Shown one piece after another: positions 810 through 24,138 of a DNA stretch of 64,000 nucleotides. The stretch covers positions 186,001-250,000 of the forward strand of contig NZ_PDWW01000001.1 of assembly GCF_010093445.1 (NCBI RefSeq), given 5' to 3'. Both the position numbers and the translations under genes were made by a program. The notes below the pieces were generated by a model that saw only the letters and a program-made list of their open reading frames with translations, was not told the origin of the DNA and searched no databases. Source of the stretch: Pseudoxanthomonas japonensis (GTDB taxonomy: Bacteria; Pseudomonadota; Gammaproteobacteria; Xanthomonadales; Xanthomonadaceae). How positions within the stretch are numbered: position 1 is the first letter of the stretch; each line of letters opens with the position of its first letter.

Positions 810-821
810 ACACGGACATAC

Positions 822-6079: not shown

Positions 6080-7345
6080 TTAACCGAACCGCGCCAATGC
6101 GTAAGGCGCCAGCGGAATGTCCGTCGCCTCGCCCGCCATCATCTGGTCGACCAGCCTGCCGGTGACCGGGCCCTGTGTCAGGCCAAGATGGCCGTGGCCG
6201 GTGGCGACGAAAATATCTTCGCCCGGCACCCGGTCAATGATCGGCAGCGAGTCCGGCGTGCACGGGCGGTTGCCCGCCCACTCCGACACCGGTTCGCCGC
6301 TGATGCCGGGAAACAGTTTGCGCGCTTCCGGATCGAGGCGATGGATCAGCGCGTAATGCGGATCGCGGCCGAGCGCGGTCAGCTCCTTGATGCTGGTCAT
6401 GCGGATGCCGGCCTGCATCGGCGACACCACCATGTAGCGCTCGGCCCACAGCGTGGGGCGCAGCACGACCGCCTGCGCCTGCGGGTACATCAAGTGGTAG
6501 CCGCGCGCAGGTATCACCGGGATCTTCAGGCCGAACGGCTGCAGCAATGCGTTGCTCCATGCGCCCGCGGCCACGACCACGCGTCCCGCATGCACGGGAC
6601 CCTGATCGGTATCGATGCGATAGCCGTCGCCCTGGCGCACGATGGCGGACGCACTGGAGATCAAGGATGCCGCGCCGCGCGTGCGCAGGTCGTCGAACAG
6701 ACGACGGCAGAACTCCCCCGGATCACGCATCGCCAGCGAGTCGCGCTGGAACACCGCGCGCTGGAATCCCGCGCCGATGCCGGGTTCGAGATCGCGCAAC
6801 TGGGCGGCATCGAGCACGTCGAACGCGACGCCTCGCTCACGCATCAGCCCGCGCTCCCATTCGCCCTTCGCGAACGTCGCGTCCTCGCTGTAAACATGCA
6901 GGTAGCCGGTGTGCCCGATCAGCTCGCTCGCACCTATGCGCTCGCCCAGATCCAGCCACGCACTGCGCGAGGCGGTGTTGATGGCACTCAGTGCATCGAT
7001 GATCGGCAACACATGCTGCAAGCGGCCCTGGTTGAGGAACTGCAGTAGCCAGCGCGCATAGGACGGGCTGACGGCCCAGTCCAGCTTCAGCGGCGCCAAC
7101 GGGTTGGCGAGCATGCGCAGCGCCTTGGTGACGATGCCCGGCGTGGACTGCGGCATCACGTTGCCGACCGAGATCGAGCCGGCATTGCCGAACGAGGTCT
7201 CGCCCGCCGGTCCCTTGGCGTCGATCAGCAGGCAGGACAGCCCGCGATCCATCAGGTGGTGCGCCGTCGACAGACCGACGATGCCGCTGCCGATCACCGC
7301 GACATCGGCTGTGCGCGGCGAGGAAGAAGAAGGGGAAGGACTCAT
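6080..7345 (-). CDS. DadA-like FAD-dependent D-amino-acid dehydrogenase
   Basis: The product is 421 residues with the FAD-binding motif GSGIVG at residues 19-24 and the DAO-family C-terminal pattern GNRPCTPDSLPIIDRV and GHGHLGLTQGPVTG typical of DadA. Such enzymes oxidise D-amino acids, classically D-alanine, to 2-oxo acids plus ammonia, passing electrons to the respiratory chain at the inner membrane. The ATG at 7345 overlaps the VanX stop by 4 bp (ATGA), so the pair is probably translationally coupled. In this locus the obvious substrate is D-Ala released by the dipeptidase. It could instead act on another D-amino acid or 4-hydroxyproline. It converges on trmL. Confidence 0.85.
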   Translation of the reverse strand: MSPSPSSSSPRTADVAVIGSGIVGLSTAHHLMDRGLSCLLIDAKGPAGETSFGNAGSISVGNVMPQSTPGIVTKALRMLANPLAPLKLDWAVSPSYARWLLQFLNQGRLQHVLPIIDALSAINTASRSAWLDLGERIGASELIGHTGYLHVYSEDATFAKGEWERGLMRERGVAFDVLDAAQLRDLEPGIGAGFQRAVFQRDSLAMRDPGEFCRRLFDDLRTRGAASLISSASAIVRQGDGYRIDTDQGPVHAGRVVVAAGAWSNALLQPFGLKIPVIPARGYHLMYPQAQAVVLRPTLWAERYMVVSPMQAGIRMTSIKELTALGRDPHYALIHRLDPEARKLFPGISGEPVSEWAGNRPCTPDSLPIIDRVPGEDIFVATGHGHLGLTQGPVTGRLVDQMMAGEATDIPLAPYALARFG

Positions 7346-8049
7346 CGGATCGGAACGTCGTAGGCGGTGCGTGGGGTGGGTTCGGGACGGAAGGTGAAGT
7401 GCCACCACTCCATCGCATAGTTCTGGAATCCATGGCGGGCCATGGCCTGCACCAGCTGCTCGCGGTGGCGGCGCTGTTCGTCGGTGATCGACGGATGCGC
7501 AGTGTTGGCGCGCGGATCGAAGAAATCGAACGGCGTGCCCATGTCGAGTTCCGTGCAGGCATCGCCATCGCAGCGGACCAGGGTCAGGTCGAGCGTGGCG
7601 CCGCGGCTGTGCCCGGAGGTTTCGGCGATGTAGCCATCCAGCAGGCTCGCCTTCTCCAGGTTGGGGTAGTACGCGGACTTTGTGCGCTGGTCGGCCGGAT
7701 CGCGTGCCCAGCGGACGAAGTGCTGCACCGCGCGCACCGGGCGGTAGCAGTCGAACACCTTCAGCGACAGCCCTTCGCGCTGCACGTCCTGTTGCACCCG
7801 TGCGAGCGCCTGCGCGACCGGCGACAGCAACATGCATTTCGGTGCTTCATAACCGGTGACGGGCGCGCCGACGAAGTTGTTCGCGCCGGCGTAGCGGATG
7901 TCCTGTTTCAGTCCGGGCACGACGCTGGCCGCCTCGACCAGATCCACGTCGGCCGCGTCCTGCGCGGGAGAGACCTGCACGGCCGGCGAAGAAGCGCAGG
8001 CGCCCAGCCATGGCAGCGCGCACACAAGCAGCAGCCAGGCACCACGCAT
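7342..8049 (-). CDS. VanX/DdpX-type D-Ala-D-Ala dipeptidase, lipoprotein
   Basis: The protein is 235 residues with a lipobox (WLGAC, Cys 18), so it is probably anchored in the periplasm. The M15D zinc site is complete: SGHSRGATLD supplies His147 and Asp154, and EWWH supplies the catalytic Glu214 and ligand His217. The substrate Arg region (CYRPVR, about 101-106) is present. VanX enzymes split D-Ala-D-Ala into D-alanine. Because it is exported and has no vanH or vanA neighbours, a catabolic role is more likely than glycopeptide resistance. It starts 1 nt after the serine hydrolase stop and overlaps the D-amino-acid dehydrogenase by 4 bp. Confidence 0.88.
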   Translation of the reverse strand: MRGAWLLLVCALPWLGACASSPAVQVSPAQDAADVDLVEAASVVPGLKQDIRYAGANNFVGAPVTGYEAPKCMLLSPVAQALARVQQDVQREGLSLKVFDCYRPVRAVQHFVRWARDPADQRTKSAYYPNLEKASLLDGYIAETSGHSRGATLDLTLVRCDGDACTELDMGTPFDFFDPRANTAHPSITDEQRRHREQLVQAMARHGFQNYAMEWWHFTFRPEPTPRTAYDVPIR

Positions 8050-8050
8050 G

Positions 8051-9607
8051 TCAGCGGCACGCCTGCGTGCGGTGGAAATCGAGATCGGCATAGTCGTAGC
8101 TGAAGTCCGCATCCGGATCGACATGCGACAGTGTAAGTCCGGCGTCGCCGCTCGCCTTCGCTGCTGCAAAGTGCAACCAGGGCTCCGCGTCCACACTGTC
8201 GTCGTCCCAGTCCACCAGCCAGCGCTCGTCCACACGCATCATCGTGCCCGCCAGCATCGGCGAGCGCGCCGCGACGAAGCGCACGCGATCACCTTGTGGA
8301 CACAGCGACACGTCGCCGAACCAGGGATCGCGGTAGTGCCCGGTCCAGGCAGCTAGCGCTCGGGGGCTGGCGATCGTGCGATGGCGCGTGTCCGCCTTCG
8401 GCTTGGCGGCCCGCTCGCCGGCACGCTCCCGATCCAGCAGCTCGGCGTAGTACGCCACCGTTGGGGTCGATTGCGGTGCGGTGAACTGCTTGGTCAGCAC
8501 CTGCCCCAATACCGTGCGTGCCGCCTCGCCTTCGCCGTTGATCAGGATGACGATGCCGGTGCGCTGGTCGGGCAGCAGGATGACCGACGAATACATCCCG
8601 GCCAGCGTGCCGGTATGGGCCACCTTCCACGCGCCATCGACATCCGACAGGCGCCAGCCGTAGCCGTAGGCCGAGAAGTGACTGTTGTCCCAGGCGCGCA
8701 TGCGCGCGCTCACCGGCATCGGCATGTGCGCCGTCCAAACGGCCTTGCGCTGCGCGGGCGACAGCCACGCGGGCGTCGCGTCCGGCGACAGCCACATGCG
8801 CATCCACGTCAGCATGTCGTCGAGGCTGCAGCGGATGCCGCCGGCCGCCATGGACGTGACGTTGGGAACCACCTCGTCATCCTCACGGATGACACGATTC
8901 CCCAGTGGCGTGCGCATGTGCGGCTGGGCCACGTTGCCGACCTCGGCGCGGTTCCATTCGCCGACCTGGCAGCGCGACAGGCCGAGCGGCTGGAACAGTT
9001 CGCGCTTCACCAGCTCTTCGTAGGGCGCACCGCCGGCAGCGGCCGCCACCTCGCCCGCGACGACATACAGCAGGTTGTCGTAGGCATACGTGGCCCGGAA
9101 GCTGTGCGTCGGCTTGAGGTGCTGTAGTCCTGCGATGATGTCGTCGCGGGTGAACCGGTTCGGTTCCGGCCACAGCATCAGGTCGCCCGCGCCCAGCCCC
9201 AGACCACTGTTGTGGATCAGCAGGTCACGCACCTGCATCTGCTGGGTGACCCACGGGTCGTGCATGCGGAACTGTGGCAGGTATTTGGTGACCGGGTCGT
9301 CCCACTTCAGCTTGCCGGCATCGACCAGGCGTGCGAGTACACCGGCCGTCATCGCCTTGCTGTTGGACGCGATCTTGAACAGCGTGTCGTTGTCGATCTT
9401 CTCGCCGCTGCCGGCCTGCAACTCGCCCAGCGTGCGGGTGTACGCGATCTCGCCGTCGCGGATGATGCCGACCGCGATGCCGGGCAGCTCGTAGCGGTCG
9501 AATGTCTGCTGGACAGCGGAGTCGATCTCGATGCCGGCAGGCTCGGCCTTTGCGGTATGTGCCAGAAGAATGGCGAGAACCCACAGCAATCTCATCGACT
9601 GGCCCAA
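8051..9607 (-). CDS. Exported penicillin-binding-type serine hydrolase (class C beta-lactamase/DD-peptidase fold)
   Basis: This 518-residue protein has a signal peptide and the serine-hydrolase triad motifs: SxxK as SNSK (81-84), YxN as YDN (176-178) and HTG in KVAHTGTLAG. It is longer than true AmpC enzymes; a C-terminal domain of about 150 residues (from about 370) resembles the lipocalin-like extensions of family S12 peptidases. Relatives include D-aminopeptidases, DD-carboxypeptidases and esterases. Its position directly before a D-Ala-D-Ala dipeptidase and a D-amino-acid dehydrogenase favours a peptidase acting on D-amino-acid peptides. A start at residue 5 (9595) is also possible. Antibiotic resistance is not implied. 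Confidence 0.8.
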   Translation of the reverse strand: MGQSMRLLWVLAILLAHTAKAEPAGIEIDSAVQQTFDRYELPGIAVGIIRDGEIAYTRTLGELQAGSGEKIDNDTLFKIASNSKAMTAGVLARLVDAGKLKWDDPVTKYLPQFRMHDPWVTQQMQVRDLLIHNSGLGLGAGDLMLWPEPNRFTRDDIIAGLQHLKPTHSFRATYAYDNLLYVVAGEVAAAAGGAPYEELVKRELFQPLGLSRCQVGEWNRAEVGNVAQPHMRTPLGNRVIREDDEVVPNVTSMAAGGIRCSLDDMLTWMRMWLSPDATPAWLSPAQRKAVWTAHMPMPVSARMRAWDNSHFSAYGYGWRLSDVDGAWKVAHTGTLAGMYSSVILLPDQRTGIVILINGEGEAARTVLGQVLTKQFTAPQSTPTVAYYAELLDRERAGERAAKPKADTRHRTIASPRALAAWTGHYRDPWFGDVSLCPQGDRVRFVAARSPMLAGTMMRVDERWLVDWDDDSVDAEPWLHFAAAKASGDAGLTLSHVDPDADFSYDYADLDFHRTQACR

Positions 9608-9630
9608 TGCACTGCGTTCTCAACATTGAC

Positions 9631-9671
9631 GAAAAGAAGGGCGTCGCCGCAATTTCTTCACGGCAACGCCC
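9631..9671 (-). terminator. Intrinsic terminator after TonB-dependent receptor 1
   Basis: On the minus strand GGGCGTTGCCG and CGGCGACGCCC form an 11-bp stem with one mismatch and an 11-nt loop (9639-9671), followed by TTCTTTTC. It lies 27 nt past the receptor stop and ahead of the serine hydrolase start. The downstream trio therefore either depends on read-through or has its own promoter. Confidence 0.7.
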
Positions 9672-9697
9672 CGTTTGCTATCTCACAAACCCGTATG

Positions 9698-12637
9698 TCA
9701 GAAGAATTTGTATTCCAATACCAGGTTGAATGCACGTCCTCGCGGATCAGCGACACGTGGCTCCCAGCCAGAGCCGCCGCCGTAATCAAGATAAGCCACG
9801 GTGAAGGGCGGATCGGTATTAAGGAGGTTCCGGATGCCGAAGGTCGCCTTCAGCCCTTCCATTCCCGTCCAACTCACACTGTAGTTGTACGTGATGTACT
9901 CATCGACGTCGGGATCGTAGTTGGGCAGGTCTGCAGGGTCCAATGCTCCGCGACTGATGGCTCGCGGCACCCAGTCCTTATAGCCATCCCTGTACACCTG
10001 AGTCAGCGTGTGTGCCCAGTCTCCCTTCGCCCAGCCAAAACTCAACGTGTGCTTCCATTCAATCGGCAAGATGCCCCACTGGGTGTAGCTCCCGACCTGA
10101 TCTGCGCTCCATGGCGAGGTCTCGAGCGTCTTGGTCTTGTATTGATCGAGATAGTTGCCATTGAAGTGGATGTTCCAGTTGCCGCCCGCCAGCTCACCGC
10201 GCAGGTTGGCATCCACTTCAATGCCGCGCGTCAGCGTTCCACCCGTATTGACGTAGCGCTGGTCGATCTGCACGACGTTTCCGCTGGCGTCGCGAATCCA
10301 GTTTTCCCTGAAGATGTCGTAGTTGTCTTTGAGCTCGCGCAAGGTTGTGGAGCGCACCGTGGCCAGTCGTTCGATCTCCCACCAGTCGACGCTGACATTG
10401 AAATTGCTGGTAGGCGCAAACACGACGCCGATACTCCGCTGTTCGGACTCCTCAGGCTTCAGGTTCGGGTTGCCGCCAGTGAGAATCGTGGGATAGATGT
10501 TCTCGCAGCCCGCTTCGCTGGCATCCGGATCACCTCCCGGGCATGTTGCGGGGTCGGCGATGTCCACGCCTGCGCCGATGCTGGGCGACTCTGTCGTTCC
10601 TCGGAACAGCTTGGCGAAATCGGGCACCTTGAAGCCCGTGCTGTATGACCCGCGGAATGCGAGCCAATCCACTGGCTGCCATTTGAATGAGTACTTGGGA
10701 TTGAACGTCCCGCCGAAACCGTCATAGTCATCGTAACGACCCGATATCGTGGCATTCAACGAATCCAGCACGGGCACGAGGAACTCGGCATATACCGCTT
10801 TTACGTTGCGAGCCTTGCCGGTCATGTAGTTGTTCGCATCACCCGCTGCTTGGTAGATCCATGCGCTACCGCCCGTGGTCGGATACGTGGTGGAATCCCA
10901 CAGGGCGGGGCCGGTGAACTCGTACTCCTCGCGACGCCATTCCGCCCCGAAAGCCGCCTGCACATCGTCTTTGGCCCAAAGGCCGAAGCCGAGACTACCG
11001 GTGAAGGTCGCGTCGAATGTGGTCGTGGTGGTTTCGCCGCTATAAAGCTGCGTGCCATCGGCTGAAATGGACTCAAGCGCTGCCAGCGCTTCGGGGGTCT
11101 GGCTCTGGCCCGGCAACAGGAAGGGATTGATCAACCCCGTTCGCAGCATCTCCTTCAATGGCGCCGTGAAGACGAAGCCATTGGTCAGCACCGACTCGGC
11201 CTTGCTGCTCGACCTTGAAAGGCCCGTCGTATAGTTCCAGTTGCCGATGCTGCCATCCAGACCCAACATCAACCGCATGGCTTTGGTGGTCGTGGTGTAT
11301 TGCCGCGGCCCGCACTCGTAGCACCTCCAGCGGTACGCAATGGGATTCCCATAGATCAGATTGGCTTGAGGCCCAAAGTGGCCCAAGAGCGCGCCATAGA
11401 CCATGTCGTAGGTCGCGCGGGTGAGATCGTTGAGGGGATACGGATCCAGCGTACCTGCTGCAGTTGCGGGATTGGTGGTAGACGGAATGGCGGTCGTAAA
11501 CTGCAGCGCTTCGAACCGGCGCTTGGACTCCACCTCCGACCCCATGGCTTCGATGTAGAACTGATGCCGGTCAGATATGTTGAACGTGAAGCGGCCAATC
11601 AGTTGATTGGTCTCGGATGCCTGCTGGAGCGTGCGTGCGCGGCCGTAATCCCAGGCGCAGGCGTAACGAAACGTCGGGTAATCCCAGATCTCGTTGGCGT
11701 AAGGCCCCATCAGGTCGCCGGCATTCTCGCAACCGATTCCTCCAGGGAGGTCCGCGATATTCACCCAGTTCTGTGGGCCGCCTCCAAGCGGGTCCGTCAA
11801 ATTTCCGTTGATCAGCGTACCTGCACCGCTACCGATGGTGGCGAAGGGGCCACCGCGGGAGTCGGGAGACAGGCCCCGGTCCGGCCGGAAGCTATTGGTG
11901 AAATCCCGGTCCTTACCCGTGAGAATCTCATTCTTCTTGTGGTTCCAAGCCAACCACACATTCCAGCGGTCACTATCGAGGTCACCGACGCCGCCCAGCA
12001 ACCCCGCGCGATAGATGTTGCCGCCACCTTCATCCGTCACGTCGGCACCCAGGGTGGCCGATAGTCCCTGATAGTCCGATCTCGTAATGAAGTTGATGAC
12101 GCCCCCGATAGCATCGGTGCCATACATGGCCGAGGCACCGTCACGCAGCACTTCAACCCGGTCGATGGCTTGGAAGGGAATCGAGTTCAGGTCCACCACC
12201 TGGCCACCCAGACCATGTGCGGCTACACGCCGGCCATTTAGCAGTACCAGCGTGGCGTCAGCGCCCTGTCCACGCAGATTGGCGCCTGACAAGCCATTGT
12301 TGCCACGCCCATCTGCTTGGCCCGGCGGCGAGATCGAATTGTTGGCCGCGAGGCTATCCGAGCCACTGGTCGCGATGTTGAGCTGCTGCAACAGCTGTTC
12401 CGCCGAAGAGATGCCCTGCGCTTCGATCTCCGCCCTCTGGATGATGGTGATCGGAAGCGCTGCCTCTACATCGGTGCGCTTGATACGCGAGCCTGTGACA
12501 TTCACCGTATCTAGCGTGCGGGCAGCGCTGCTTGTGGAAGCCTCATCCTGCGCGAACACGACGCCGGGAACGGCCAAGCCCAACAGGATGGCGGTAGCGA
12601 GGTGGGTGGGCCTGAGCGAAGGGCGTCGAGCGGGCAT
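9698..12637 (-). CDS. TonB-dependent outer-membrane receptor 1
   Basis: From the ATG at 12637 (AGGAG about 7 nt upstream) the product is 979 residues. It has a signal peptide ending VVFAQD, a plug domain with VNVTGSRIKRTDVEAALPIT and GVINFITRSDY, and a long beta-barrel ending in aromatic residues (EYKFF), as outer-membrane barrels do. The plug style (GSRIKR..., LLQQLN) is that of xanthomonad receptors importing peptides or carbohydrates, not clearly siderophores. GC looks lower than in neighbouring genes; two sampled 60-base rows gave 53% and 60%. The shared regulatory element at 12912-12960 lies upstream, and the locus context suggests a muropeptide-type ligand. Confidence 0.9.
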   Translation of the reverse strand: MPARRPSLRPTHLATAILLGLAVPGVVFAQDEASTSSAARTLDTVNVTGSRIKRTDVEAALPITIIQRAEIEAQGISSAEQLLQQLNIATSGSDSLAANNSISPPGQADGRGNNGLSGANLRGQGADATLVLLNGRRVAAHGLGGQVVDLNSIPFQAIDRVEVLRDGASAMYGTDAIGGVINFITRSDYQGLSATLGADVTDEGGGNIYRAGLLGGVGDLDSDRWNVWLAWNHKKNEILTGKDRDFTNSFRPDRGLSPDSRGGPFATIGSGAGTLINGNLTDPLGGGPQNWVNIADLPGGIGCENAGDLMGPYANEIWDYPTFRYACAWDYGRARTLQQASETNQLIGRFTFNISDRHQFYIEAMGSEVESKRRFEALQFTTAIPSTTNPATAAGTLDPYPLNDLTRATYDMVYGALLGHFGPQANLIYGNPIAYRWRCYECGPRQYTTTTKAMRLMLGLDGSIGNWNYTTGLSRSSSKAESVLTNGFVFTAPLKEMLRTGLINPFLLPGQSQTPEALAALESISADGTQLYSGETTTTTFDATFTGSLGFGLWAKDDVQAAFGAEWRREEYEFTGPALWDSTTYPTTGGSAWIYQAAGDANNYMTGKARNVKAVYAEFLVPVLDSLNATISGRYDDYDGFGGTFNPKYSFKWQPVDWLAFRGSYSTGFKVPDFAKLFRGTTESPSIGAGVDIADPATCPGGDPDASEAGCENIYPTILTGGNPNLKPEESEQRSIGVVFAPTSNFNVSVDWWEIERLATVRSTTLRELKDNYDIFRENWIRDASGNVVQIDQRYVNTGGTLTRGIEVDANLRGELAGGNWNIHFNGNYLDQYKTKTLETSPWSADQVGSYTQWGILPIEWKHTLSFGWAKGDWAHTLTQVYRDGYKDWVPRAISRGALDPADLPNYDPDVDEYITYNYSVSWTGMEGLKATFGIRNLLNTDPPFTVAYLDYGGGSGWEPRVADPRGRAFNLVLEYKFF

Positions 12638-12964
12638 GCGGATCTCCTCTGGATGTCTTTGTGCGCGGTGTGCGCGACCGATGTGATGGGCTGCGATACG
12701 CTCGGCGCGCGGTTCCGGGGCCGACGCCGTTGCCCGCGCGGGGGCTGCGTCGCTGTCGTTCCTCGATCCCCGGCCCGGATGGCTCCCCATTCGCGCCTTG
12801 CCGCGCATCCCATCCCGGGTGCGCACCACAGATTGCATTTGAAACCGACTACTCCGGCACCCCTGCCGGCAAAACCCCTGTGATGGCGGTGTAGCACGCA
12901 GCTTGACCGCAGTCAATAAATTATTCTTGCGCCGCAAAAAAACCGACTTGAATATTCCTGTTTG
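12638..12964 (-). other. 327-bp promoter region and leader of TonB-dependent receptor 1
   Basis: No gene is apparent here. The amiD-proximal end holds the shared operator-like element (12912-12960) and a possible minus-strand promoter, TTGACT at 12911-12916 and TACACC at 12888-12893 with 17 bp between. Transcription would start near 12881, leaving an unusually long leader of about 240 nt before the receptor ATG. Confidence 0.55.
12912..12960 (-). promoter_or_regulatory. Shared composite operator A, upstream of TonB receptor 1
   Basis: GTCAATAAATTATTCTTG (12912-12929) contains the 11-bp perfect palindrome AATAAATTATT. AATATTCCTG (12951-12960) follows 39 bp from start to start. The same two blocks with one change each and the same 39-bp offset occur at 18511-18559. 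On the minus strand the half-site CAAGAATA/CAGGAATA repeats at a 31-bp interval, about three helical turns, just upstream of the TTGACT -35 box. A binding site for the RpiR regulator in this locus is the leading inference. Confidence 0.6.
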
Positions 12965-13723
12965 TTACGGCGATGCCACGGGTGGCGCAGTCAGCGCATG
13001 CAGGATGCGCAGGTCTTCGGCATCCAGTTCCGTGCCTTCCATGCCGCGAAAGCGATGGTGGAAAGCACGCACCGTATCGGGGCGATTGTCGGTGGCGTAG
13101 CCGATCGCCTGCAGCGCCAGCCACGGATCGAAGCCGGGCGGGGGATCACCAACACCCTCCGCCGGCCATACACCGAAGCCGGCGTCCGCCAGACGCTTCC
13201 ACGGGAACAGCGGACCCGGGTCGATCTTGCGCGTCGGCGCCAGGTCCGAGTGGCCGATGACCTGCGTCGGAGGGATGCGCAGACGTTGGGTCAGGTCGCG
13301 CAGCAGCACGATCAGGCTGTCGATCTGCACGTCGGGAAACGGACTCTTGCCGTCGTTGTCGATCTCGATGCCGATCGAGGCGTTGTTGACGTCGGTGATC
13401 GCGCCCCAGCGCCCCGCGCCGGCGTGCCAGGCGCGCTGCGTGTCGCTGACCAGCTGGTAGATCTTGCCGTCCTTGCCCAGCAGGTAGTGCGAGCTGACAC
13501 GTCCGCCACTGTTGCGGCTACGCAGCGTGTCCAATGACTGCTCCACCGAATCCTGTTCGGTGTAGTGCAGCACGATGACCACCGGCCGCCGCTCGTCGAA
13601 GTTCTTCGAGGGCACCCAGGTCGCGAGCGGATTGCGTGGAGCGGAGTGCGCGCATGCGCCGAGCAGGAGCACCATGGCGGCGAGGATCGCGGACCGGCAG
13701 GCGGATGGGACGTGCTTCGTCAT
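12965..13723 (-). CDS. AmiD/AmpD-family N-acetylmuramoyl-L-alanine amidase, lipoprotein
   Basis: The product is 252 residues with a lipobox (LLLGAC, Cys 24), like the outer-membrane amidase AmiD. The amidase_2 zinc motifs are present: VLHYTE (first His), SSHYLL, the NNASIGIEI strand and GHSDLAPTRKIDPGP carrying the later ligands and catalytic residue. This enzyme hydrolyses the amide bond between N-acetylmuramic acid and L-alanine in peptidoglycan fragments, releasing free stem peptides. The start at 13723 is chosen over an upstream in-frame codon because it begins the signal peptide. It follows TonB receptor 2 by about 130 nt on the same strand, but a terminator lies between them. Confidence 0.88.
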   Translation of the reverse strand: MTKHVPSACRSAILAAMVLLLGACAHSAPRNPLATWVPSKNFDERRPVVIVLHYTEQDSVEQSLDTLRSRNSGGRVSSHYLLGKDGKIYQLVSDTQRAWHAGAGRWGAITDVNNASIGIEIDNDGKSPFPDVQIDSLIVLLRDLTQRLRIPPTQVIGHSDLAPTRKIDPGPLFPWKRLADAGFGVWPAEGVGDPPPGFDPWLALQAIGYATDNRPDTVRAFHHRFRGMEGTELDAEDLRILHALTAPPVASP

Positions 13724-13789
13724 GATGGATACCTCGATGAGACGCAATGCGTAGGAATAACACGGACGACGCGCTCGGCCGCGAATGAC

Positions 13790-13824
13790 CGGAAGAAAGA
13801 AAGGCCTGCCGCGGACGGCAGGCC
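13790..13824 (-). terminator. Intrinsic terminator after TonB-dependent receptor 2
   Basis: GGCCTGCC (13803-13810) and GGCAGGCC (13817-13824) form a perfect 8-bp stem with a 6-nt loop. On the minus strand it is followed by the T-rich run TTTCTTTCTTCC. It is 34 nt after the receptor stop. Confidence 0.75.
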
Positions 13825-16884: not shown

Positions 16885-16939
16885 CCCCGCTCTCTCCTGC
16901 TAAAGATGTTGGTTGAATCGTGTTGTGGTCGTATCGCGC

Positions 16940-18430
16940 TCAGCCGCGCCCATCCCGCGGCAGCATCGTCCATTCGAACGTGTAGTCCCATTGGTCGAAG
17001 TAGAGGTTGCCGCCCTTCCATTCCACTTCGCCGCGCTGCAGGTCCACGGTTTCGGACCGCACGTGCTGCTTGGCGGGGATGAACTCGCGCGAGTAGTCGT
17101 CGTTGAACGCCACGCGATAGGCATCCAGTCCGCCAAGATAGAACCAGCGCAGCGCCGGGTCGTCCGAGTCGAGCTGGCCGGTGGTCACGTCCATCGGCAC
17201 CCAGCCGTACGGCGCCAGATACAGCGCACCCCAGTCGTGCATGGTGTCGTGGCCTTCGACGTCTTCCGAATAGGCCCAGCCCGACTGCCAGCGCGCGGGG
17301 ATGCCGTTCATCCGCAGCAGCGTGATCAGCAGCAGCGTCTGCTGTCCGCAATCGGCATGGCCCGCGCGGAACGCGTGGTCGCTGATGTTGGTGATCGTGG
17401 AGTACTCGCGCGCACCGGCCCACGGAATGCGGTCCACGGCGGCGAACAGCTTCTGGGCGACGCGGTAGGGATTCTTTTCTCCGCCCACCACCTGCTCGCT
17501 GAAACGGCGGAGGTCGTCGTTGAAGACGACATGCGGCGCGCGCTCGGCGAGGAACGGAGCAAGTTCGGGCGTGGCGATCGCCGGCACCACGCGCTCGGGA
17601 TCAATCGCCACGCGGCGTGCGTGCACGGTGACTTCATACGTCACCGAGAACGTCGTCGGCACGCCGGCGACCGCCGGTTGCTCGAGATACGCGGTGCGCT
17701 GCAACGCGCGTTCCGGCGCCACCTGCGGACGCGCTGGCTGGCTGGTCACCAGCGCGATGGCCTCCTGCTGGCCCGCGATGGCGCGCGGGTACGGCAGCCA
17801 GGCGCGCACGGTTTCGCCCGCCGGCACGGCGTCGGGCTTCACGCTGAGGGTATGGGTGATGCGCACGCGACGCGGCAGCACGCTGGTTGCGCCGGTGGCT
17901 TTGGCGACCTGCACCACGTCGCGATGATGGCGGTGCAGCGCCTCATAGGGGCCCTGTGCGAAGGGCCGCACCGGCGGCGCTCGGCGCGCGGCGGCCTCCG
18001 GACTCAGCCGGAACAGGTTCGACACCGACCGGTTGAAGTAACGCGGCTCACCGTCGATATCCAGCCGCTCGATCAGCCCGGCACTGTCCCAGCGCTGGAA
18101 CTCGTCCTCGCCCAGATCCGGCACGTGCGTGCGGATGCGGTCGCGCACCGCGGTGGCGTCGAGGGTGAAGTCGAGGCGCATGCGTCGCATGCGCTCGCGC
18201 TGGAACAGCAGTGCCTCGCGGCCCGCCGTGTCCGCGTCGTGGCTTGCGAGTGCCTGCGCAATGGCGATTTCCGCGTCGCGGAACCGTCCCTGGTCGATAT
18301 CCGCGACGATAACGGCGAGAGGATCGCCCGCCGTGGCCAGGCCCGGCAGCGGGAGTACCATCGGCCACCCGCACAGCGACAGCCACGCAGCCATCCGGCG
18401 CCGGGTGCGCCTGCCGCGTTCTGTGGTCAT
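16940..18430 (-). CDS. Exported transglutaminase-like cysteine peptidase
   Basis: From the ATG at 18430 the product is 496 residues with a signal peptide (LSLCGWPMVLPLPGLATA). The transglutaminase-core triad is visible: Cys in HADCGQQTLL, His in MHDWGALYL and Asp in MDVTTG. Bacterial members are usually proteases or amide hydrolases rather than cross-linkers. An N-terminal helical region (about 40-180) precedes the core. A GTG at 18469 is a possible longer start, but the ATG with GGGAG 8 nt upstream begins the signal peptide. It heads the minus-strand arm of the locus; a peptide or wall-peptide substrate is an inference. Confidence 0.8.
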   Translation of the reverse strand: MTTERGRRTRRRMAAWLSLCGWPMVLPLPGLATAGDPLAVIVADIDQGRFRDAEIAIAQALASHDADTAGREALLFQRERMRRMRLDFTLDATAVRDRIRTHVPDLGEDEFQRWDSAGLIERLDIDGEPRYFNRSVSNLFRLSPEAAARRAPPVRPFAQGPYEALHRHHRDVVQVAKATGATSVLPRRVRITHTLSVKPDAVPAGETVRAWLPYPRAIAGQQEAIALVTSQPARPQVAPERALQRTAYLEQPAVAGVPTTFSVTYEVTVHARRVAIDPERVVPAIATPELAPFLAERAPHVVFNDDLRRFSEQVVGGEKNPYRVAQKLFAAVDRIPWAGAREYSTITNISDHAFRAGHADCGQQTLLLITLLRMNGIPARWQSGWAYSEDVEGHDTMHDWGALYLAPYGWVPMDVTTGQLDSDDPALRWFYLGGLDAYRVAFNDDYSREFIPAKQHVRSETVDLQRGEVEWKGGNLYFDQWDYTFEWTMLPRDGRG

Positions 18431-18486
18431 GTGCTGGCTCCCGCTCGCATCCACGTCGTACATCCCCACGCCGACTGGTCACGGCT

Positions 18487-18515
18487 GTGTAACACGGCAT
18501 GAACGGAAGGGTCAA
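18487..18515 (-). promoter_or_regulatory. Candidate sigma-70 promoter for the minus-strand arm
   Basis: On the minus strand TTGACC (18510-18515) and TTACAC (18487-18492) are separated by 17 bp, placing the transcription start near 18480, about 50 nt before the ATG at 18430. The same arrangement (TTGACT-17-TACACC) lies before TonB receptor 1, so the conserved 18-bp element covers the -35 box in both. Confidence 0.5.
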
Positions 18516-18559
18516 TAATTTATTCTTGATTTTTATAGCGGAAGAAATAAATATTCTTG
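18511..18559. promoter_or_regulatory. Shared composite operator B in the divergent promoter region
   Basis: GTCAATAATTTATTCTTG (18511-18528) differs from the element at 12912-12929 at one base, the centre of the palindrome AATAAWTTATT. AATATTCTTG (18550-18559) matches the second block at 9 of 10 positions with identical offset. The element lies between the divergent transglutaminase and C40 peptidase genes. It covers the minus-strand -35 box and a possible plus-strand promoter (TTGATT at 18526, TAAATA at 18548, 16-bp spacer), so one bound regulator could control both arms. Confidence 0.65.
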
Positions 18560-18621
18560 TGGAAACGGTCCCCGGCATGGCGTCATGTTGTCGGAGGGAT
18601 GGGTCTGACGGAGGGGAGTGG

Positions 18622-20088
18622 ATGAACGCATCGATGCCGTACCGGCCCTTGGGCCGGCCAGCCAGGGCTGGGTTCGCTGGACCGGATGGGCGCGTGAAAG
18701 CCCTCGCCCTGCTCGGCCTGTTGGCCGCGGGCCTGCCCGCCTTTGCCCGCGACCCGCTGCCCGTTCCCGCCCATGCCGTCATCGGCGTACAGGAGCGCCA
18801 CCTCCAAGCGGACGACTGGATCCGCCGCCTGGCCCAGCCGGACCGGCTGCTGCTGGACGACGCCGGTGTGGCAGCGCAGAACGACCGCATGCGGAAGGAC
18901 GACCGGCATGTCCATGTACTGCAGGACCTGCCCGCCGCCTTCACTCGCGCACAGGTCCGCGGCTGGCTGGATCCGCTGTCCGCTCCGCCGACCCGCACCC
19001 TCTACGACGATCAGGGCCGGGAAGTCACGAAGCCGCAGCTGGCGGCCATCGCCGCCAATGCCGCCGTCGACGCGGTCGCCGCGAACACAACCGCACGCTA
19101 CGGCCTGGTCGTGCACCGCGCCGACCTGCGCACCTTCCCGACCCGCCAGCGCGTCTTCAGCAGCCGGGGGGACACCGACATCGACCGCTTCCAGGAGAGC
19201 GCGCTGTTCCCGGGCACACCGGTGGTGATCGCGCACACCAGCGCCGACGGCGACTGGTACTTCGTGGTGAGCCCGCGGTATGCCGCGTGGATCGAGAAGC
19301 GGTTCGTCGGCGAAGGCCCCCGCGAGGCGGTGTTCGGCTACGGCACGGGCGCGTCCGCCCTGGTGGTGACCGGCGCCACCGCGCGCACGGTCTACAACCC
19401 GGAGGAGCCCGGTCTGTCCGCGCTGCAGCTGGACATGGGTGTCCGTGTCCCGGTGCTGGCCGACTGGCCCGCGAACAAGCCGGTGAACGGCCAGCATCCC
19501 TATACCTCGCACGTCATCCAGTTGCCGGTACGTCGTGACGACGGAACGCTCGCGCTGCTGCCAGCACTGCTGCCGCGGACCGCCGACGTCGCACCGGACT
19601 ACCTGCCTTACACCTCCGCCAACCTGCTCCGCCAGAGCTTCAAGTTCCTCGGCGAGCGCTACGGCTGGGGCCACCGCTACGACAGCCGCGATTGCAGCGG
19701 CTTCGTGTCGGAGGTCTACCAGAGCATGGGCATCGTGCTGCCGCGCAATACCAGCGCGCAGGCCGTCAGCCCGGCGCTGGAGCGCATCGGCTTCGACGCC
19801 GGCGACAGCCACGAAAAACGCCTGGCCGTGCTGCGCACGCTGCAGGTCGGCGACCTGGTCTACATCCCGGGCCACGTCATGATGGTGATCGGCCACGACA
19901 ACGGCACCACCTACACCATCCACGACACCACCGGCATCACCTGGCGCGGCCCCGACGGCAACGTCGTCCGCACCACCCTCAACTCGGTCGCCGTCACTCC
20001 GCTGGAGCCCTTGCTGTTCAACAGCGAGCAGCCCACCGTCGACCGCATCACCGCCATCCAGCGCGTCCGTCCCCAAGGGGCTCCATGA
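18622..20088 (+). CDS. YkfC-like NlpC/P60 (C40) gamma-D-glutamyl endopeptidase with SH3-type domains, exported
   Basis: The product is 488 residues from the ATG at 18622, which follows GAGGGG by 5 nt. An in-frame extension to 18499 would run through the operator and lacks signal-peptide character. After a signal peptide (LALLGLLAAGLPAFA) come SH3-like segments (about 110-300) and a C-terminal NlpC/P60 domain with catalytic Cys358 (RDCSGF), His418 (PGHVMMVIGH) and His434 (IHDTTG). YkfC cuts the D-Glu-gamma-diaminopimelate bond of murein tripeptides, leaving L-Ala-D-Glu. Its stop overlaps the epimerase start (ATGA), matching ykfB-ykfC pairing in Bacillus. Here, unlike in Bacillus, it is exported. 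Confidence 0.87.
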   Translation: MNASMPYRPLGRPARAGFAGPDGRVKALALLGLLAAGLPAFARDPLPVPAHAVIGVQERHLQADDWIRRLAQPDRLLLDDAGVAAQNDRMRKDDRHVHVLQDLPAAFTRAQVRGWLDPLSAPPTRTLYDDQGREVTKPQLAAIAANAAVDAVAANTTARYGLVVHRADLRTFPTRQRVFSSRGDTDIDRFQESALFPGTPVVIAHTSADGDWYFVVSPRYAAWIEKRFVGEGPREAVFGYGTGASALVVTGATARTVYNPEEPGLSALQLDMGVRVPVLADWPANKPVNGQHPYTSHVIQLPVRRDDGTLALLPALLPRTADVAPDYLPYTSANLLRQSFKFLGERYGWGHRYDSRDCSGFVSEVYQSMGIVLPRNTSAQAVSPALERIGFDAGDSHEKRLAVLRTLQVGDLVYIPGHVMMVIGHDNGTTYTIHDTTGITWRGPDGNVVRTTLNSVAVTPLEPLLFNSEQPTVDRITAIQRVRPQGAP

Positions 20089-21182
20089 AGATCACCGACA
20101 TCACCTTCGGCATGCTGCGCGTGCCGCTCAAGACACCGTTCAAGACCGCGCTGCGCACCGTCGACACGGTGGAAGACATCGTGGTCATCGTGAAGACCGA
20201 TACCGGCCACGTCGGTTACGGCGAAGCGCCAGCCACGGCGGTGATCACCGGCGACACGCACGGCTCGATCATCGAGGCCATCGGCAAGTTCATCCGGCCG
20301 CGGCTGATCGGCCAGGACGTCGCCAACCTCAACCACATCACCGACCTCATCCAGACAGCGCTCGAGCGCAACACCAGCGCCAAGGCGGCGGTCGAAATCG
20401 CGGTGTACGACCTGTGGGCGCAGCTGTACGACGCACCGCTGTACAAGATGCTGGGCGGCGGCGACCCCGTCATCACCACCGACATCACCATCAGCGTGGA
20501 CTACATCGACAAGATGGTCGCCGATTCGATCAGCGCGGTGGAGCGCGGTTTCGAATCGTTGAAGATCAAGGTCGGCAAGGACATCGGCCTGGACATCGAG
20601 CGCGTCAAGGCGATCTATTCCGCCGTCGAAGGCCGTGCGCTGCTGCGTCTGGACGCCAACCAGGGCTGGACCGCCAAGCAGGCGGTGTTCGCCATGCAGC
20701 ACCTGGAAGACGCCGGCGTGGTGCTGGAATTGCTCGAGCAGCCGGTCAAGGCGCGCGACCTGGACGGCCTGAAGTACGTCACCGACCGCGTGCATACGCC
20801 GGTGATGGCGGACGAGAGTGTGTTCGGCCCCACCGAAGTCATCGACCTGATCAAGATGCGCGCGGCCGACATCATCAACATCAAGCTGATGAAGACCGGC
20901 GGTATTTCCAACGCCATCCGCATCGCCGATATCGCCTCGCTGTACGGCGTCGAGTGCATGATCGGCTGCATGATCGAGACCAGCATCAGCGTGGCGGCCG
21001 CCGTGCACGTGGCCGCGGCGAAGGCCAACGTCATCACCAAGGTGGACCTGGATGGCCCGTCACTGGGCCAGTTCAACCCGGTCGAAGGCGGGGTGATCTT
21101 CAACGAGTCGGAAATCACCATTACCGAGGCGCCCGGCCTGGGTATCCGCGAGATCCGCGGCCTGGAGATGCTGCCGGGCTGA
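20085..21182 (+). CDS. L-Ala-D/L-Glu epimerase (dipeptide epimerase, enolase superfamily)
   Basis: The product is 365 residues, typical for muconate-lactonising-enzyme-group epimerases. The barrel carries K-x-K at 160-162 (LKIKVGK), metal ligand Asp190 (DANQGW), the Glu of ELLEQP, the Asp of MADES and the opposite lysine in IKLMKTGG (267-270). These enzymes invert the D-Glu of L-Ala-D-Glu so that ordinary peptidases can use the dipeptide; this is a late step of murein-peptide degradation, in the cytoplasm. It overlaps the C40 peptidase gene by 4 bp. Other dipeptide specificities exist, but the neighbours support L-Ala-D-Glu. Confidence 0.92.
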   Translation: MKITDITFGMLRVPLKTPFKTALRTVDTVEDIVVIVKTDTGHVGYGEAPATAVITGDTHGSIIEAIGKFIRPRLIGQDVANLNHITDLIQTALERNTSAKAAVEIAVYDLWAQLYDAPLYKMLGGGDPVITTDITISVDYIDKMVADSISAVERGFESLKIKVGKDIGLDIERVKAIYSAVEGRALLRLDANQGWTAKQAVFAMQHLEDAGVVLELLEQPVKARDLDGLKYVTDRVHTPVMADESVFGPTEVIDLIKMRAADIINIKLMKTGGISNAIRIADIASLYGVECMIGCMIETSISVAAAVHVAAAKANVITKVDLDGPSLGQFNPVEGGVIFNESEITITEAPGLGIREIRGLEMLPG

Positions 21183-21236
21183 GCCCGGTGGCGATGGCCC
21201 GTTGTCAGCACCGTCCTCCGCCATCACACTCGCGCC

Positions 21237-22094
21237 ATGACAACGTCCCTGGTGAAGATCCGCTCCGAACGCGACCAGATGTCGGCCATCGAGCGCCGCA
21301 TCGCCGACTTCATCCTCGACAACGCGCACCTGCTGCGCGACTACTCCTCCCAGCAGCTGGCCAGCGCGCTGGGCATCAGCCAGTCGAGCGTGGTGAAGTT
21401 CGCGCAGAAGTTCGGCTTCAAGGGCTACCCGGACCTCAAGTACACCATCGGCGAAGCCGTCGCCCGCAACGGCAACGGCCAGGCGTTGCCGCCGGACGCC
21501 GCGCAGGACGATGCCGTGGATGCCTATGGGCAGCTGCAGGACAGCCTTCGCCGCAGCAAGATGGCGGCCGAGGAGGAAACCCGCAGCCTCAACCCGCGCA
21601 CGCACATCGAGCCGATCGTGGAACTGATCGACCACGCCGGCAAGGTGTTCGTCTGCGGGCTGGGCGACGATGGCCTGTTCGCGCGCGAGTTCGCCATGCG
21701 GCTGTCGCTGCTGGGCCTGCTGACGGTGCATCACGCCGACCCCATCCTGATGATGGCCAACCTGTCGGCGGCGCGTCCGGGCGATGTGCTACTGATGTTC
21801 TCCGAGTTCGGCAAGCTGCCCGAGCTGTCGCAGGTCAGCCGCCAGTTCCAGGCCTGCGAGGGCAAGGTCATTTCGATCACCCGCCACACCGCCAACCCGC
21901 TGCGCGCGCACGCGGACGCGGCGCTGGTGATCTCGGCGCACGATCCGGCGCCGCACGTGGAGCAACTGCTGTACCGCTCGTCGCTGCAGTCGCTGCTGGA
22001 TTTCGTCTTCGTGCTGCTGTGCCAGTCCAATCCGGACCGCAACCGCCAGCTCGCCATCAATCTCGAACGCATCCATCACCTGCTGGAGTCGTGA
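21237..22094 (+). CDS. MurR/RpiR-family transcriptional regulator (HTH + SIS domain)
   Basis: This 285-residue protein has an N-terminal RpiR helix-turn-helix (about residues 1-77, with YSSQQLASALGISQSSVVKF) and a SIS sugar-phosphate-binding domain (about 110-270, with FVCGLGDDGLFAREF and ISITRHTANPLRAHAD). Family members such as MurR sense phosphosugars like MurNAc-6-phosphate and usually act as repressors. It is the only regulator inside the locus and is the likely binder of the shared elements at 12912-12960 and 18511-18559. Its stop shares one base with the next start. Its ligand is not known. Confidence 0.9.
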   Translation: MTTSLVKIRSERDQMSAIERRIADFILDNAHLLRDYSSQQLASALGISQSSVVKFAQKFGFKGYPDLKYTIGEAVARNGNGQALPPDAAQDDAVDAYGQLQDSLRRSKMAAEEETRSLNPRTHIEPIVELIDHAGKVFVCGLGDDGLFAREFAMRLSLLGLLTVHHADPILMMANLSAARPGDVLLMFSEFGKLPELSQVSRQFQACEGKVISITRHTANPLRAHADAALVISAHDPAPHVEQLLYRSSLQSLLDFVFVLLCQSNPDRNRQLAINLERIHHLLES

Positions 22095-22885
22095 TGTCCC
22101 TACCGTCGTTACCTTACCTCTCCCGGTCTCTCGCCCTGGCCGCTGTCCTGCTCACCGGCACCGCCCATGCGATGGCAGCCGACGCGTCGGCACCGGCCGC
22201 ATCGTCCTGGCGCGATGCGCGCCAACTGGTGCTGGTGGTAACCGATGGCTGGGACGCGACGACCGGCACGCTGCAGCGCTTCGAGCTCCGCGACGGACGC
22301 TGGCAGGCGGTCGCTCCGGCGGCTCCGATCGCCGTCGGCCGGAACGGTGCGGCGTGGGGCCTGGGCCTGCACCCCGCGCAGGCGCAGGGACCGCAGAAGC
22401 AGGAAGGGGACGGCCGCGCGCCGGCGGGGGTGTTCACGCTCGGCGAAGCGTTCGGTTACGCGGCCAAGGCCGACACCGCCATGCCCTACCGCGCGATGCA
22501 GGCGACCAGCTACTGCATCGATGTTCCGGATTCGCCGCTGTACAACCGCATCATCGATACGCGCACCGAAGGCGAGGCCGCCGCGAAAGGCTCGACCGAG
22601 CCCATGCGACTGGACCTGCACAATCAGGGCGACATCCGTTACCGCGAAGGTCTGGTGATCGGCCACAACCCGAAGGCCACGCCACGCGCCGGCAGCTGCA
22701 TCTTCGCGCACCTGTGGCGCACGCCAGGCGAACCTACCGCCGGGTGCACGGCGATGGCATCCGAGACGATGGACAGCGTTCTGGCCTGGCTGCGTCCCGA
22801 CGCGCGCCCGGTCTTCGTGCTGCTGCCCCGCGCCGAGTACACCCGCCTCGCCCATGACTGGCAGTTGCCGGAGGCGACACGATGA
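22094..22885 (+). CDS. Exported L,D-transpeptidase (YkuD) domain protein
   Basis: This 263-residue protein has a signal peptide ending THAMAAD. The C-terminal half matches the YkuD fold seen in proteins annotated as L,D-transpeptidases or L,D-carboxypeptidases: catalytic His in FAHLWRTPG and Cys218 in TAGCTAM. The usual HGC is replaced by AGC. Such enzymes exchange or trim bonds at diaminopimelate in stem peptides. It overlaps the RpiR gene by 1 bp and the symporter gene by 4 bp, so it belongs to the operon. Hydrolysis rather than cross-linking would suit the degradative context, but this is inferred. Confidence 0.8.
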   Translation: MSLPSLPYLSRSLALAAVLLTGTAHAMAADASAPAASSWRDARQLVLVVTDGWDATTGTLQRFELRDGRWQAVAPAAPIAVGRNGAAWGLGLHPAQAQGPQKQEGDGRAPAGVFTLGEAFGYAAKADTAMPYRAMQATSYCIDVPDSPLYNRIIDTRTEGEAAAKGSTEPMRLDLHNQGDIRYREGLVIGHNPKATPRAGSCIFAHLWRTPGEPTAGCTAMASETMDSVLAWLRPDARPVFVLLPRAEYTRLAHDWQLPEATR

Positions 22886-24138
22886 GGTGGCCGGGCGCCA
22901 CCGCGCGCGTTCTCCTCGGGCTTGGAGCCGGCGCGATCGTCGGCTTGTCGCTGGCGCACTGGTCGCCGACCAGCGCCGCCACGGCGGTGGCCATCGCGCA
23001 ACCGATCGGCAAGCTGTGGCTCAGCGGCTTGCAGATGACGGTGGTCCCGCTGGTGCTGTCGCTGGTGATCCTCGGTGTCGCCACCGCCAGCGATGCCGCC
23101 GCCTCCGGCCGTGTCGCGCGGCGGGCGATGGTGGTGTTCATCTCCCTGCTGTCGCTGTTCGCCGCCTATGCGGCCATCGTCGCGCCGCTGGTGCTGTCTA
23201 TGGTGCCGCCCAGCGAAGCGCTGACCGCCACGCTGCACGGCACGCTGCCGCCCGCCGGAGCGACCGGCGCGCCGGCGCTCGCCGACTGGATCGGTTCCAT
23301 CGTGCCCAGCAACGCCATCATGGCTGCCGCGCAAGGCGCGATGCTGCCGGTGGTCGTGTTCGCGCTGTTCTTCGGATTCGCCCTCACCCGCGTGCAGGAA
23401 GACCGCCGCGCGCAGGTCATCGGCTTCTGCCACGGCATTGCCGACACCATGATCGTGATCGTGCGCTGGATGTTGCTGGCCGCGCCGATCGGCGTGTTCG
23501 CGCTGGTGCTCGCCGTTTGCGCGCAGGCCGGCATCGGCGTGATCGGCGCGTTGGCAGGCTACATCGCGCTCCAGTGCGGGATGTACCTGGGCGCGACCCT
23601 GATCTGTTACGCGCTGGTGGCCGTGTTCGCGCGCCAATCGCCGCTCGCCTTCGCCAAGGCGATCCTGCCTGCCCAGGTCGTGGCCGCCAGCACACAGTCT
23701 TCACTGGCGTCGCTACCGGCGATGGTGGAGAGCGCCCGCTTCCGTCTGGGCCATCCGCGTGCCGTCGCCGCCCTGGTGCTGCCGATGGCCGTCACGCTGT
23801 TCCGCATCACCAGCCCGATCCAGTACATCGTCGCGGCATGCTTCGTCGCTTGGGCCTACGGTATCGAGGTCAACGCCGTGACGCTCGCCGCTGGCGCTGC
23901 GCTCGCCGTGGTGATCAGTCTCGGCTCCATCGGCCTGCCGGGGCAGGTGAGCTTCATGGCGACGGTCATGCCGGTGACGCAATCGATGGGCCTGCCGATC
24001 GAACCACTGGGTCTTCTGCTTGCGGTGGACACCATCCCCGACGTATTCGCCACCACCGGCAACGTCACCGGCGACCTGACCGCCACCAGCATCGTCGCGC
24101 GCCAGTCGCCCGACGCCAGGGATGGCGATGATGGCTGA
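22882..24138 (+). CDS. DAACS-family dicarboxylate/amino-acid:cation symporter
   Basis: The product is 418 residues with about eight hydrophobic membrane segments and reentrant-loop features of the GltP/GltPh family: the Ser-rich AASTQSSLASLPAM hairpin, the MAVTLFRITSPIQYI helix in place of the usual NMDGT motif, and the DTIPDVFATTGNVTGDL C-terminal helix. Family members import glutamate, aspartate, Ser/Thr or C4-dicarboxylates with Na+ or H+. As last gene of the operon, overlapping its predecessor by 4 bp, it may carry glutamate or another cleavage product across the inner membrane. The atypical substrate-site residues leave specificity open. Confidence 0.85.
   Translation: MRWPGATARVLLGLGAGAIVGLSLAHWSPTSAATAVAIAQPIGKLWLSGLQMTVVPLVLSLVILGVATASDAAASGRVARRAMVVFISLLSLFAAYAAIVAPLVLSMVPPSEALTATLHGTLPPAGATGAPALADWIGSIVPSNAIMAAAQGAMLPVVVFALFFGFALTRVQEDRRAQVIGFCHGIADTMIVIVRWMLLAAPIGVFALVLAVCAQAGIGVIGALAGYIALQCGMYLGATLICYALVAVFARQSPLAFAKAILPAQVVAASTQSSLASLPAMVESARFRLGHPRAVAALVLPMAVTLFRITSPIQYIVAACFVAWAYGIEVNAVTLAAGAALAVVISLGSIGLPGQVSFMATVMPVTQSMGLPIEPLGLLLAVDTIPDVFATTGNVTGDLTATSIVARQSPDARDGDDG

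Follow-up and report, generated by a model that had tools for sequence, protein, structure and literature searches.

We describe a locus of twelve genes at positions 6,080–24,138 of a 64,000-nucleotide stretch of Pseudoxanthomonas japonensis DNA (contig NZ_PDWW01000001.1; the whole stretch is called the window), from a genome assembly of 4.08 Mb. Quite probably the locus is a catabolic regulon that is conserved and typical of its lineage, with murein peptides as the most likely substrates; our confidence in the single steps is lower. This reading is based on sequence, namely on the conserved gene set, a shared operator that co-varies with an RpiR-family regulator, catalytic residues and predicted compartments, from which we infer operator binding, enzyme activities, transported substrates, the inducer and the use of foreign or own wall. 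An earlier note on this DNA had proposed that wall peptides are used by one unit reaching from the outer membrane to the cytoplasm. This proposal is strongly supported by the conserved clustering of the genes, the shared private operator, the matching division between enzymes that are exported and enzymes of the cytoplasm, and a diaminopimelate (DAP) decarboxylase encoded in sister loci.

Conservation of the gene set

The twelve genes lie in two divergent arms (Table 1), and the open reading frame (ORF) check found no internal stops. The leftward arm codes for a DadA-like dehydrogenase, a VanX-type dipeptidase, an AmpH-like hydrolase, an amidase, two TonB-dependent receptors (TBDR1 and TBDR2) and a transglutaminase-fold protein (TG), and the rightward arm for an NlpC/P60 (C40) endopeptidase, a predicted L-Ala-D/L-Glu epimerase (AEE), the RpiR-family regulator, a YkuD-like protein and a DAACS symporter. 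Overlaps of 4 bp join VanX/DadA, C40/AEE and YkuD/DAACS, and an overlap of 1 bp joins RpiR/YkuD. The gene set, the divergent arms and the 1–4 bp overlaps described in the earlier note are thus borne out by the ORFs, the Pfam/NCBIfam families and the coordinates. All the locus families passed the Pfam cut-offs except YkuD. The NCBIfam scores for DadA, VanX, AmpH, AmpD and AEE were all under the curated equivalog or subfamily cut-offs, and these names therefore rest on Pfam family, PDB relatives and conserved residues.

We mapped the window proteins on 80 named loci, the best 80 of 378 AEE relatives, some of which end at contig borders. The closest named relatives are Pseudoxanthomonas species (AEE identity up to 99%), and the loci span Pseudoxanthomonas, Lysobacter, Luteimonas, Stenotrophomonas, Xanthomonas, Tahibacter, Frateuria, Fulvimonas, Vulcaniibacterium and others; the gene set is also found in Rhodanobacter, Dyella, Steroidobacter and Povalibacter. 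C40, AEE and RpiR were grouped in 80/80 loci; the conservation of AEE is not taken as evidence, as the loci were chosen by AEE similarity. The other members were YkuD (75 loci), TG (73), TBDR2 (70), DAACS (59) and AmpH (53), followed by the rarer VanX (37), amidase (13), TBDR1 (8) and DadA (5). The route from VanX to DadA, which the earlier note had taken as a general part, is not supported as such by these frequencies: VanX plus DadA is a local extension of the locus.

Among 198 genomes of the family (thresholds of E ≤ 1e-60 for AEE, and E ≤ 1e-40 for C40 and RpiR), AEE was found in 124 and C40 in 138. C40 was present in all the 124 AEE genomes and adjoined AEE in 121 of them. At the level of the class, 369 sampled genomes, with few close kin among them (one listed from the same order but another family), gave AEE (E ≤ 1e-80) in four genomes and C40 (E ≤ 1e-40) in four, all of the own family. 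The check for dispersal of the genes in related genomes, suggested in the earlier note as a refuting test, found the core genes not dispersed, and because the core order recurs in relatives the grouping exceeds chance. Separately, one sister locus (L090:7426–11066, genome G028) has DAACS, C40 and VanX grouped without an AEE or RpiR match; L090, L091 and L093 were inspected by pattern only.

The family scan of cluster representatives revealed further members of the sister loci: a DAP decarboxylase (32/80; representative 472 bits versus a cut-off of 298), a DUF819 membrane protein (32/80), an M19 membrane dipeptidase (20/80), a DAO-family FAD-dependent oxidoreductase (17/80) and an APC permease (13/80). 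ORF clusters c13, c21 and c26 had no Pfam match and were discarded, as they look like wrong-frame calls. DAP is a hallmark amino acid of the wall, and the presence of the DAP decarboxylase and the M19 dipeptidase in sister loci argues for wall peptides as food; the decarboxylase is absent from the window's own locus. In 5/5 genomes tested, the locus decarboxylase (468–474 bits) stands beside a weaker match (289–320 bits) in an open frame of 874–1024 residues, which fits in size a fused aspartokinase-decarboxylase, an enzyme that occurs in the Xanthomonas-related group. The locus-bound enzyme, as a second decarboxylase for DAP, is the best single hint at wall-peptide catabolism.

A predicted two-site operator and the RpiR-family regulator

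A 48-bp element, consisting of GGTCAATAAWTTATKC, an 18-bp spacer and GAAnTAnnTATTC, sits between TG and C40 (or DUF819). When 74 such regions were aligned, one from the window and 73 from the loci, mean column information was 1.79 bits for site 1, 1.27 for site 2, 0.16 for the spacer, and 0.44 and 0.19 for the flanks. A composite matrix placed it upstream of C40 or DUF819 in 80/80 loci. The remaining matches above 25 bits were all 258–329 bp upstream of TBDR1, in six of the eight TBDR1-bearing loci. In the whole of the own genome, site 1 at ≤2 mismatches occurs only in the copies at 18510 and 12911, and the reversed-pattern control gave no match there. Owing to the copy at 12911, the TBDR1-AmpH-VanX-DadA run joins the predicted regulon of both arms, and the whole resembles a single private regulon. 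It is possible that the operator overlaps promoters that read to the left: the second copy, read leftward, holds TTGACT followed after 16 bp by CTACAC (for the first copy see Table 1).

Site 1 at ≤1 mismatch was present in 98/198 family genomes (reversed control 0/198). AEE was carried by 97 of these 98, and 98 of 103 site-1 matches were within 10 kb of AEE or C40. Five matches were off-locus. One of them, in genome G003 (L087:9590–12721), is an exact operator upstream of a TBDR2 homologue (58% identical) on a contig apart from the main locus, making this homologue a possible extra member of the regulon.

The regulator and the operator went together. Among the 124 AEE genomes, both RpiR and the locus operator were found in 94, neither in 23, RpiR alone in six and the operator alone in one, whose genome is 85% complete and split over 270 contigs. 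Fisher tests of this co-occurrence ignore shared ancestry, and more weight was therefore given to the genera with both states (g7, g11, g28, g46 and g51). As both states occur inside single genera, shared ancestry alone cannot explain the match. Eight RpiR-negative loci scored by the matrix had no such site. RpiR hardly varies in its DNA-binding region and is predicted to read the operator. One of the eight RpiR-negative loci, in genome G134, has an apparently decayed operator remnant (L101:10501–10548, together with the AEE-YkuD gap), a natural test case for the loss of regulator and operator.

The regulator belongs to the RpiR/MurR family by its HTH_6 and SIS domains (Pfam), and its best-scoring PDB relatives are proteins named phosphosugar-binding or MurR/RpiR regulators. 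The Ser/Thr motif with which SIS domains bind phosphosugars, as seen in 8txl, was not found in the alignment to that structure. In the first loop the serine pair of 8txl is replaced and D145 is present in 81/81 sequences; in the second, E190 is present in 81/81 and the Ser two residues on is absent. These changes suggest a ligand that lacks phosphate and may carry an amine; L-Ala-D-Glu and DAP would be examples. On a bolder reading, which is less likely than not, RpiR responds to a wall peptide or amino acid that bears no phosphate, through a SIS pocket turned acidic at its phosphate-binding residues, and controls a murein-peptide feeding regulon that reaches from the outer membrane to the cytoplasm across the Xanthomonadales, with DAACS, APC and DUF819 as candidate importers of murein dipeptides.

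Enzymes, carriers and the proposed route

The C40 protein had been called YkfC-like in the earlier note. The YkfC subfamily is defined by Asp256 and the SH3b residue Tyr118 and is tied to a free N-terminal L-Ala (PMC2954226). With the position of Asp256 located from the conserved motif that follows the catalytic Cys, and not from structure, Asn is found in the window and in 78/80 loci and Asp in two (L041 and L051, position 376 in window numbering), a possible natural specificity switch. The SH3b domains, where Tyr118 would lie, are strongly divergent in sequence. The AF2 model (pLDDT 87.2, low at 347–350) matched DvLysin (3m1u) best in Foldseek, with TM-scores of 0.68/0.78 over 440 columns versus 0.40–0.43 (query) for YkfC-type structures. 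The identity as YkfC is therefore rejected. The catalytic triad is C358 (80/80), H418 (80/80) and H434 (79/80). The c-clip, two SH3b domains, NlpC/P60 domain and Cys-His-polar triad of the DvLysin/PnpA type are all present, the domains being assigned through the full-length match and not singly. PnpA cleaves muropeptides with the sugar still attached (PMC7860986), and the window C40 likely also attacks stems linked to sugar, be it in the periplasm or outside the cell.

The closest PDB relative of AEE is the L-Ala-D/L-Glu epimerase 1jpm. The residues expected of this enzyme type, R24, KxK, D190, E218, D243, K267 and DxD, with the acids as metal ligands, are kept in 81/81 sequences. Two NCBIfam models scored it under their cut-offs (258.5 versus 500 and 115.7 versus 343 bits). 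No glutamate racemase of the own genome reaches the family cut-off (best 28 versus 147 bits). Free D-Glu would then be difficult for the cell to use, and AEE may serve as a bypass. X. oryzae makes D-Glu within UDP-MurNAc-dipeptide by MurL, for which the D-to-L reaction was not seen (PMC5808125). If that route holds in the window's genus, free D-Glu would not be racemised to L-Glu and the epimerase would bypass this step. A weak glutamate-racemase-like match far under the cut-off (L103, G000:C22:223592–223972) perhaps belongs to another racemase family.

The catalytic residues of the other enzymes were conserved as far as aligned: H161 and D168 in 37/37 and E228 and H231 in 36/37 (one gap) for VanX, S77, K80, Y172 and N174 in 54/54 for AmpH, H53, H158 and D168 in 14/14 for the amidase, H206 and C218 in 76/76 for YkuD, and C361, H398 and D414 in 74/74 for TG. 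Rows with a stop inside the high-scoring pair were dropped from the residue counts (C40 10/80, VanX 1/37), and stop rows of M19 (4/20) and APC (1/13) were uncounted there; the C40 recount took in all 80, as the stops are true stop codons at residue 485, overrun by the alignment. VanX scored 190 bits, below the 320-bit cut-off of the equivalog NF033115, and a lipobox-like motif is present in 15/37 of its locus copies. A 130-residue membrane-protein-like frame without a Pfam match (L062:862–1254 and similar) adjoins VanX in 9/80 loci. No structure matched YkuD at E ≤ 0.001; the best was Pgp2 (E 0.02), and a role as L,D-carboxypeptidase is weakly suggested by the model.

A crude signal test detected a hydrophobic N-terminal core in C40 (79/80), VanX (37/37), the amidase (13/13), YkuD (70/75), TG (69/73) and AmpH (46/54). 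The corresponding counts were 0/80 for AEE, 0/80 for RpiR and 1/32 for the decarboxylase. M19 was left out, as its starts are badly placed.

The DAACS protein keeps the Asp of transmembrane helix 8 (D387, 60/60). It has Ala (58/60) at the Arg position of the aligned aspartate transporter 9bgz, and an F-R-[IL]-T-S stretch (R308 in 60/60) in place of NMDGT; the substrate-site roles of these residues are those of GltPh. This unusual site is consistent with a different substrate, and a dipeptide would be our guess. DUF819, APC and DAACS were considered as strictly alternative carriers, an idea rejected because many loci carry DUF819 together with DAACS, and L011 carries APC together with DAACS. 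At the thresholds applied, all three were missing from four full-length loci (L027, L029, L042 and L064).

On the proposed route, muropeptides or stem peptides would reach the periplasm through the TonB receptors. In this compartment, the amidase would release the stem from the sugar, the lysin-type C40 would cut gamma-D-Glu from DAP, and AmpH, YkuD and VanX would trim or open the D-Ala and cross-link ends. L-Ala-D-Glu, D-Ala and DAP may then pass the inner membrane via DAACS (APC or DUF819 in sisters). In the cytoplasm, AEE would convert L-Ala-D-Glu to L-Ala-L-Glu, usable by ordinary peptidases, and DadA would oxidise D-Ala; in sister loci the second DAP decarboxylase would make lysine. Control of the two arms would lie with RpiR, bound to the 48-bp operator, part of which coincides with promoter-like sequence.

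The following points weigh against this reading. The 80 loci are biased to close relatives, and the composite matrix was trained on 73 of them and the window. C40 occurs without AEE in 14/198 family genomes. A 1-mismatch off-locus site in G068 has no locus gene adjoining, and three further off-locus matches lie in G063, G134 and G159. RpiR is missing in 24/124 AEE genomes and is thus dispensable, and in the second SIS loop the leading serine, S189, is kept in 79/81. In six RpiR-bearing genomes no operator at the locus matches with ≤1 mismatch; four were inspected, and three of them have a degenerate composite (34.6–37.2) and one a degenerate site 1 only (17.5; the top site-1 score among 40 shuffled loci was 8.0), all four upstream of C40 or DUF819. 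TG has no step in the proposed scheme, and AmpG is encoded in the own genome.

Because AmpG is present, own-wall turnover may feed the locus. The locus could then recover peptides lost to the periplasm during growth and not gain food from other bacteria; own muropeptides are handled in this genome, and the sequence gives no sign of which wall is eaten. We nevertheless hold such salvage to be rather unlikely, as the two TonB receptors and the off-locus receptor homologue of G003 with the same operator suit an external supply, and the second, separate DAP decarboxylase of sister loci suits catabolism over the re-use of DAP. It is improbable that the wall enzymes were recruited by fold for other D- or gamma-linked peptides (poly-gamma-glutamate, lipopeptides, D-amino-acid peptides): dipeptide epimerases vary in specificity, and TG and the receptors carry no assigned substrate, but Arg24 and DxD of AEE are of the L-Ala-D/L-Glu type throughout, and the best relatives of VanX, the amidase and the decarboxylase act on wall or DAP substrates. 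Still less credible is a locus for cell-wall remodelling or drug tolerance in which AmpH, YkuD, VanX and C40, whose families include wall-remodelling members, reshape the own wall, since the cytoplasmic AEE, the DAP decarboxylase, the D-amino-acid oxidoreductases, the inner-membrane carriers and the TonB receptors are catabolic or uptake functions and no VanH- or VanA-type family came up in the match lists for the twelve proteins.

Table 1. Genes and regulatory elements of the locus in window positions (gene coordinates include stop codons)
Feature	Position	Strand	Evidence
DadA-like FAD-dependent D-amino acid dehydrogenase	6080..7345	-	Pfam DAO 2.3e-60; NCBIfam DadA 204.9 bits vs cut-off 383
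Exported VanX-type D-Ala-D-Ala dipeptidase, lipobox in window copy	7342..8091	-	Peptidase_M15 8e-42; alignment to VanX 1r44
AmpH-like serine hydrolase, class C beta-lactamase/penicillin-binding protein fold, exported	8051..9595	-	Pfam Beta-lactamase 1.2e-61
TBDR1	9698..12637	-	Plug + beta-barrel; start set at 12637, open frame extends to 12937
Operator copy 2, upstream of TBDR1-AmpH-VanX-DadA run	12911..12958	+	Composite score 42.9
AmpDh2/AmiD-type N-acetylmuramoyl-L-alanine amidase, predicted lipoprotein	12965..13723	-	Amidase_2 1.7e-35; best PDB AmpDh2 4bpa
TBDR2, N-terminal carboxypeptidase-regulatory-like domain	13858..16884	-	Domain search
Exported TG, Cys/His/Asp kept	16940..18430	-	Transglut_core 2.6e-16
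Promoter-like pair for left arm: -35 TTGACC (within operator site 1), 17 bp, -10 TTACAC	18487..18515	-	Sequence reading; flank columns partly conserved
Operator between arms: GGTCAATAAWTTATKC + 18 bp + GAAnTAnnTATTC	18510..18557	+	
Exported NlpC/P60 (C40) gamma-D-Glu-DAP endopeptidase, DvLysin/PnpA type	18622..20088	+	SH3_6 + NLPC_P60; Foldseek best 3m1u; residues
Predicted L-Ala-D/L-Glu (dipeptide) epimerase (AEE), cytoplasmic	20085..21182	+	Best PDB 1jpm, 344 bits
RpiR-family regulator, HTH_6 + SIS, predicted operator reader	21237..22094	+	Pfam; co-variation with operator
Exported YkuD-like protein, possible L,D-carboxypeptidase	22094..22885	+	YkuD 23.1 bits vs cut-off 23.4
DAACS (SDF) family inner-membrane symporter, altered substrate residues	22882..24138	+	SDF 1.1e-76

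The genes on either side look unremarkable, with TrmL to the left and an Ax21/OmpO-type porin, GpsA and SecB to the right. Elsewhere in the window, a small and probably exported protein of the XAC0231 family, which contains three near-repeats of ~28 residues, lies at 4926–5312 (+), and a 999-residue frame at 759–3758 (+), antisense to an M16-protease-like gene, is likely a high-GC artefact.

Comparison with known systems

The regulon is widespread, with AEE in 124/198 sampled family genomes, and includes Lysobacter, a genus known for lysing other bacteria. Other genera that bear it include plant or opportunistic pathogens. Muropeptides induce beta-lactamase in some relatives, and a peptide sink could therefore matter there. 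The parts that can be tested are the operator, the regulator with an unusual sensor domain, the candidate dipeptide importers and the receptors. In open-licence literature we found no description of the whole system, nor a TonB-linked wall-peptide operon model for the lineage; subscription papers may hold more.

In E. coli, ycjG-mpaA and DdpX provide an AEE for L-Ala-D-Glu and a D-Ala-D-Ala dipeptidase, as in the window locus; unlike in the window, these are not a single locus, MpaA stands instead of C40 and the regulators are others. The murein polysaccharide-utilisation locus (PUL) of the Urechidicola mussel symbiont differs in its Bacteroidota SusCD, its sugar genes murQ and nagB, its glycoside hydrolases and DeoR, and VanX, C40 and RpiR are not named in the accessible part of its description (PMC10199937). 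None of the twelve window proteins has a SusD domain, and the window locus, with TonB receptors only, is thus not a PUL of the SusCD type. The C40 resembles DvLysin (3m1u) and PnpA (6sqx) by the full-length structural match, the catalytic residues and an Arg-Asn as in 3m1u. PnpA is a secreted enzyme with a proposed role in combating competitors or in drawing nutrients from dead neighbours, and the accessible text of PMC7860986 does not mention a catabolic regulon.

Another close likeness is to Bacillus ykfABCD/ykfBC, where a C40 gamma-D-Glu-DAP endopeptidase and an L-Ala-D/L-Glu epimerase also adjoin and whose epimerase type (1jpm) is closest to the window AEE. B. cereus YkfC is exported, as is predicted for the window C40. 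The adjacency of C40 and AEE is also described for Listeria, Acidobacterium, Solibacter, B. thetaiotaomicron and Gramella (PMC2954226), and YkfC is also treated for Chlamydia (PMC9928106). In contrast to Bacillus ykf, the twelve window genes include no dpp/opp transporter, and the locus has a DvLysin-type C40, TonB receptors, VanX, AmpH, the amidase and control by RpiR. The locus is probably a new form of murein-peptide utilisation.

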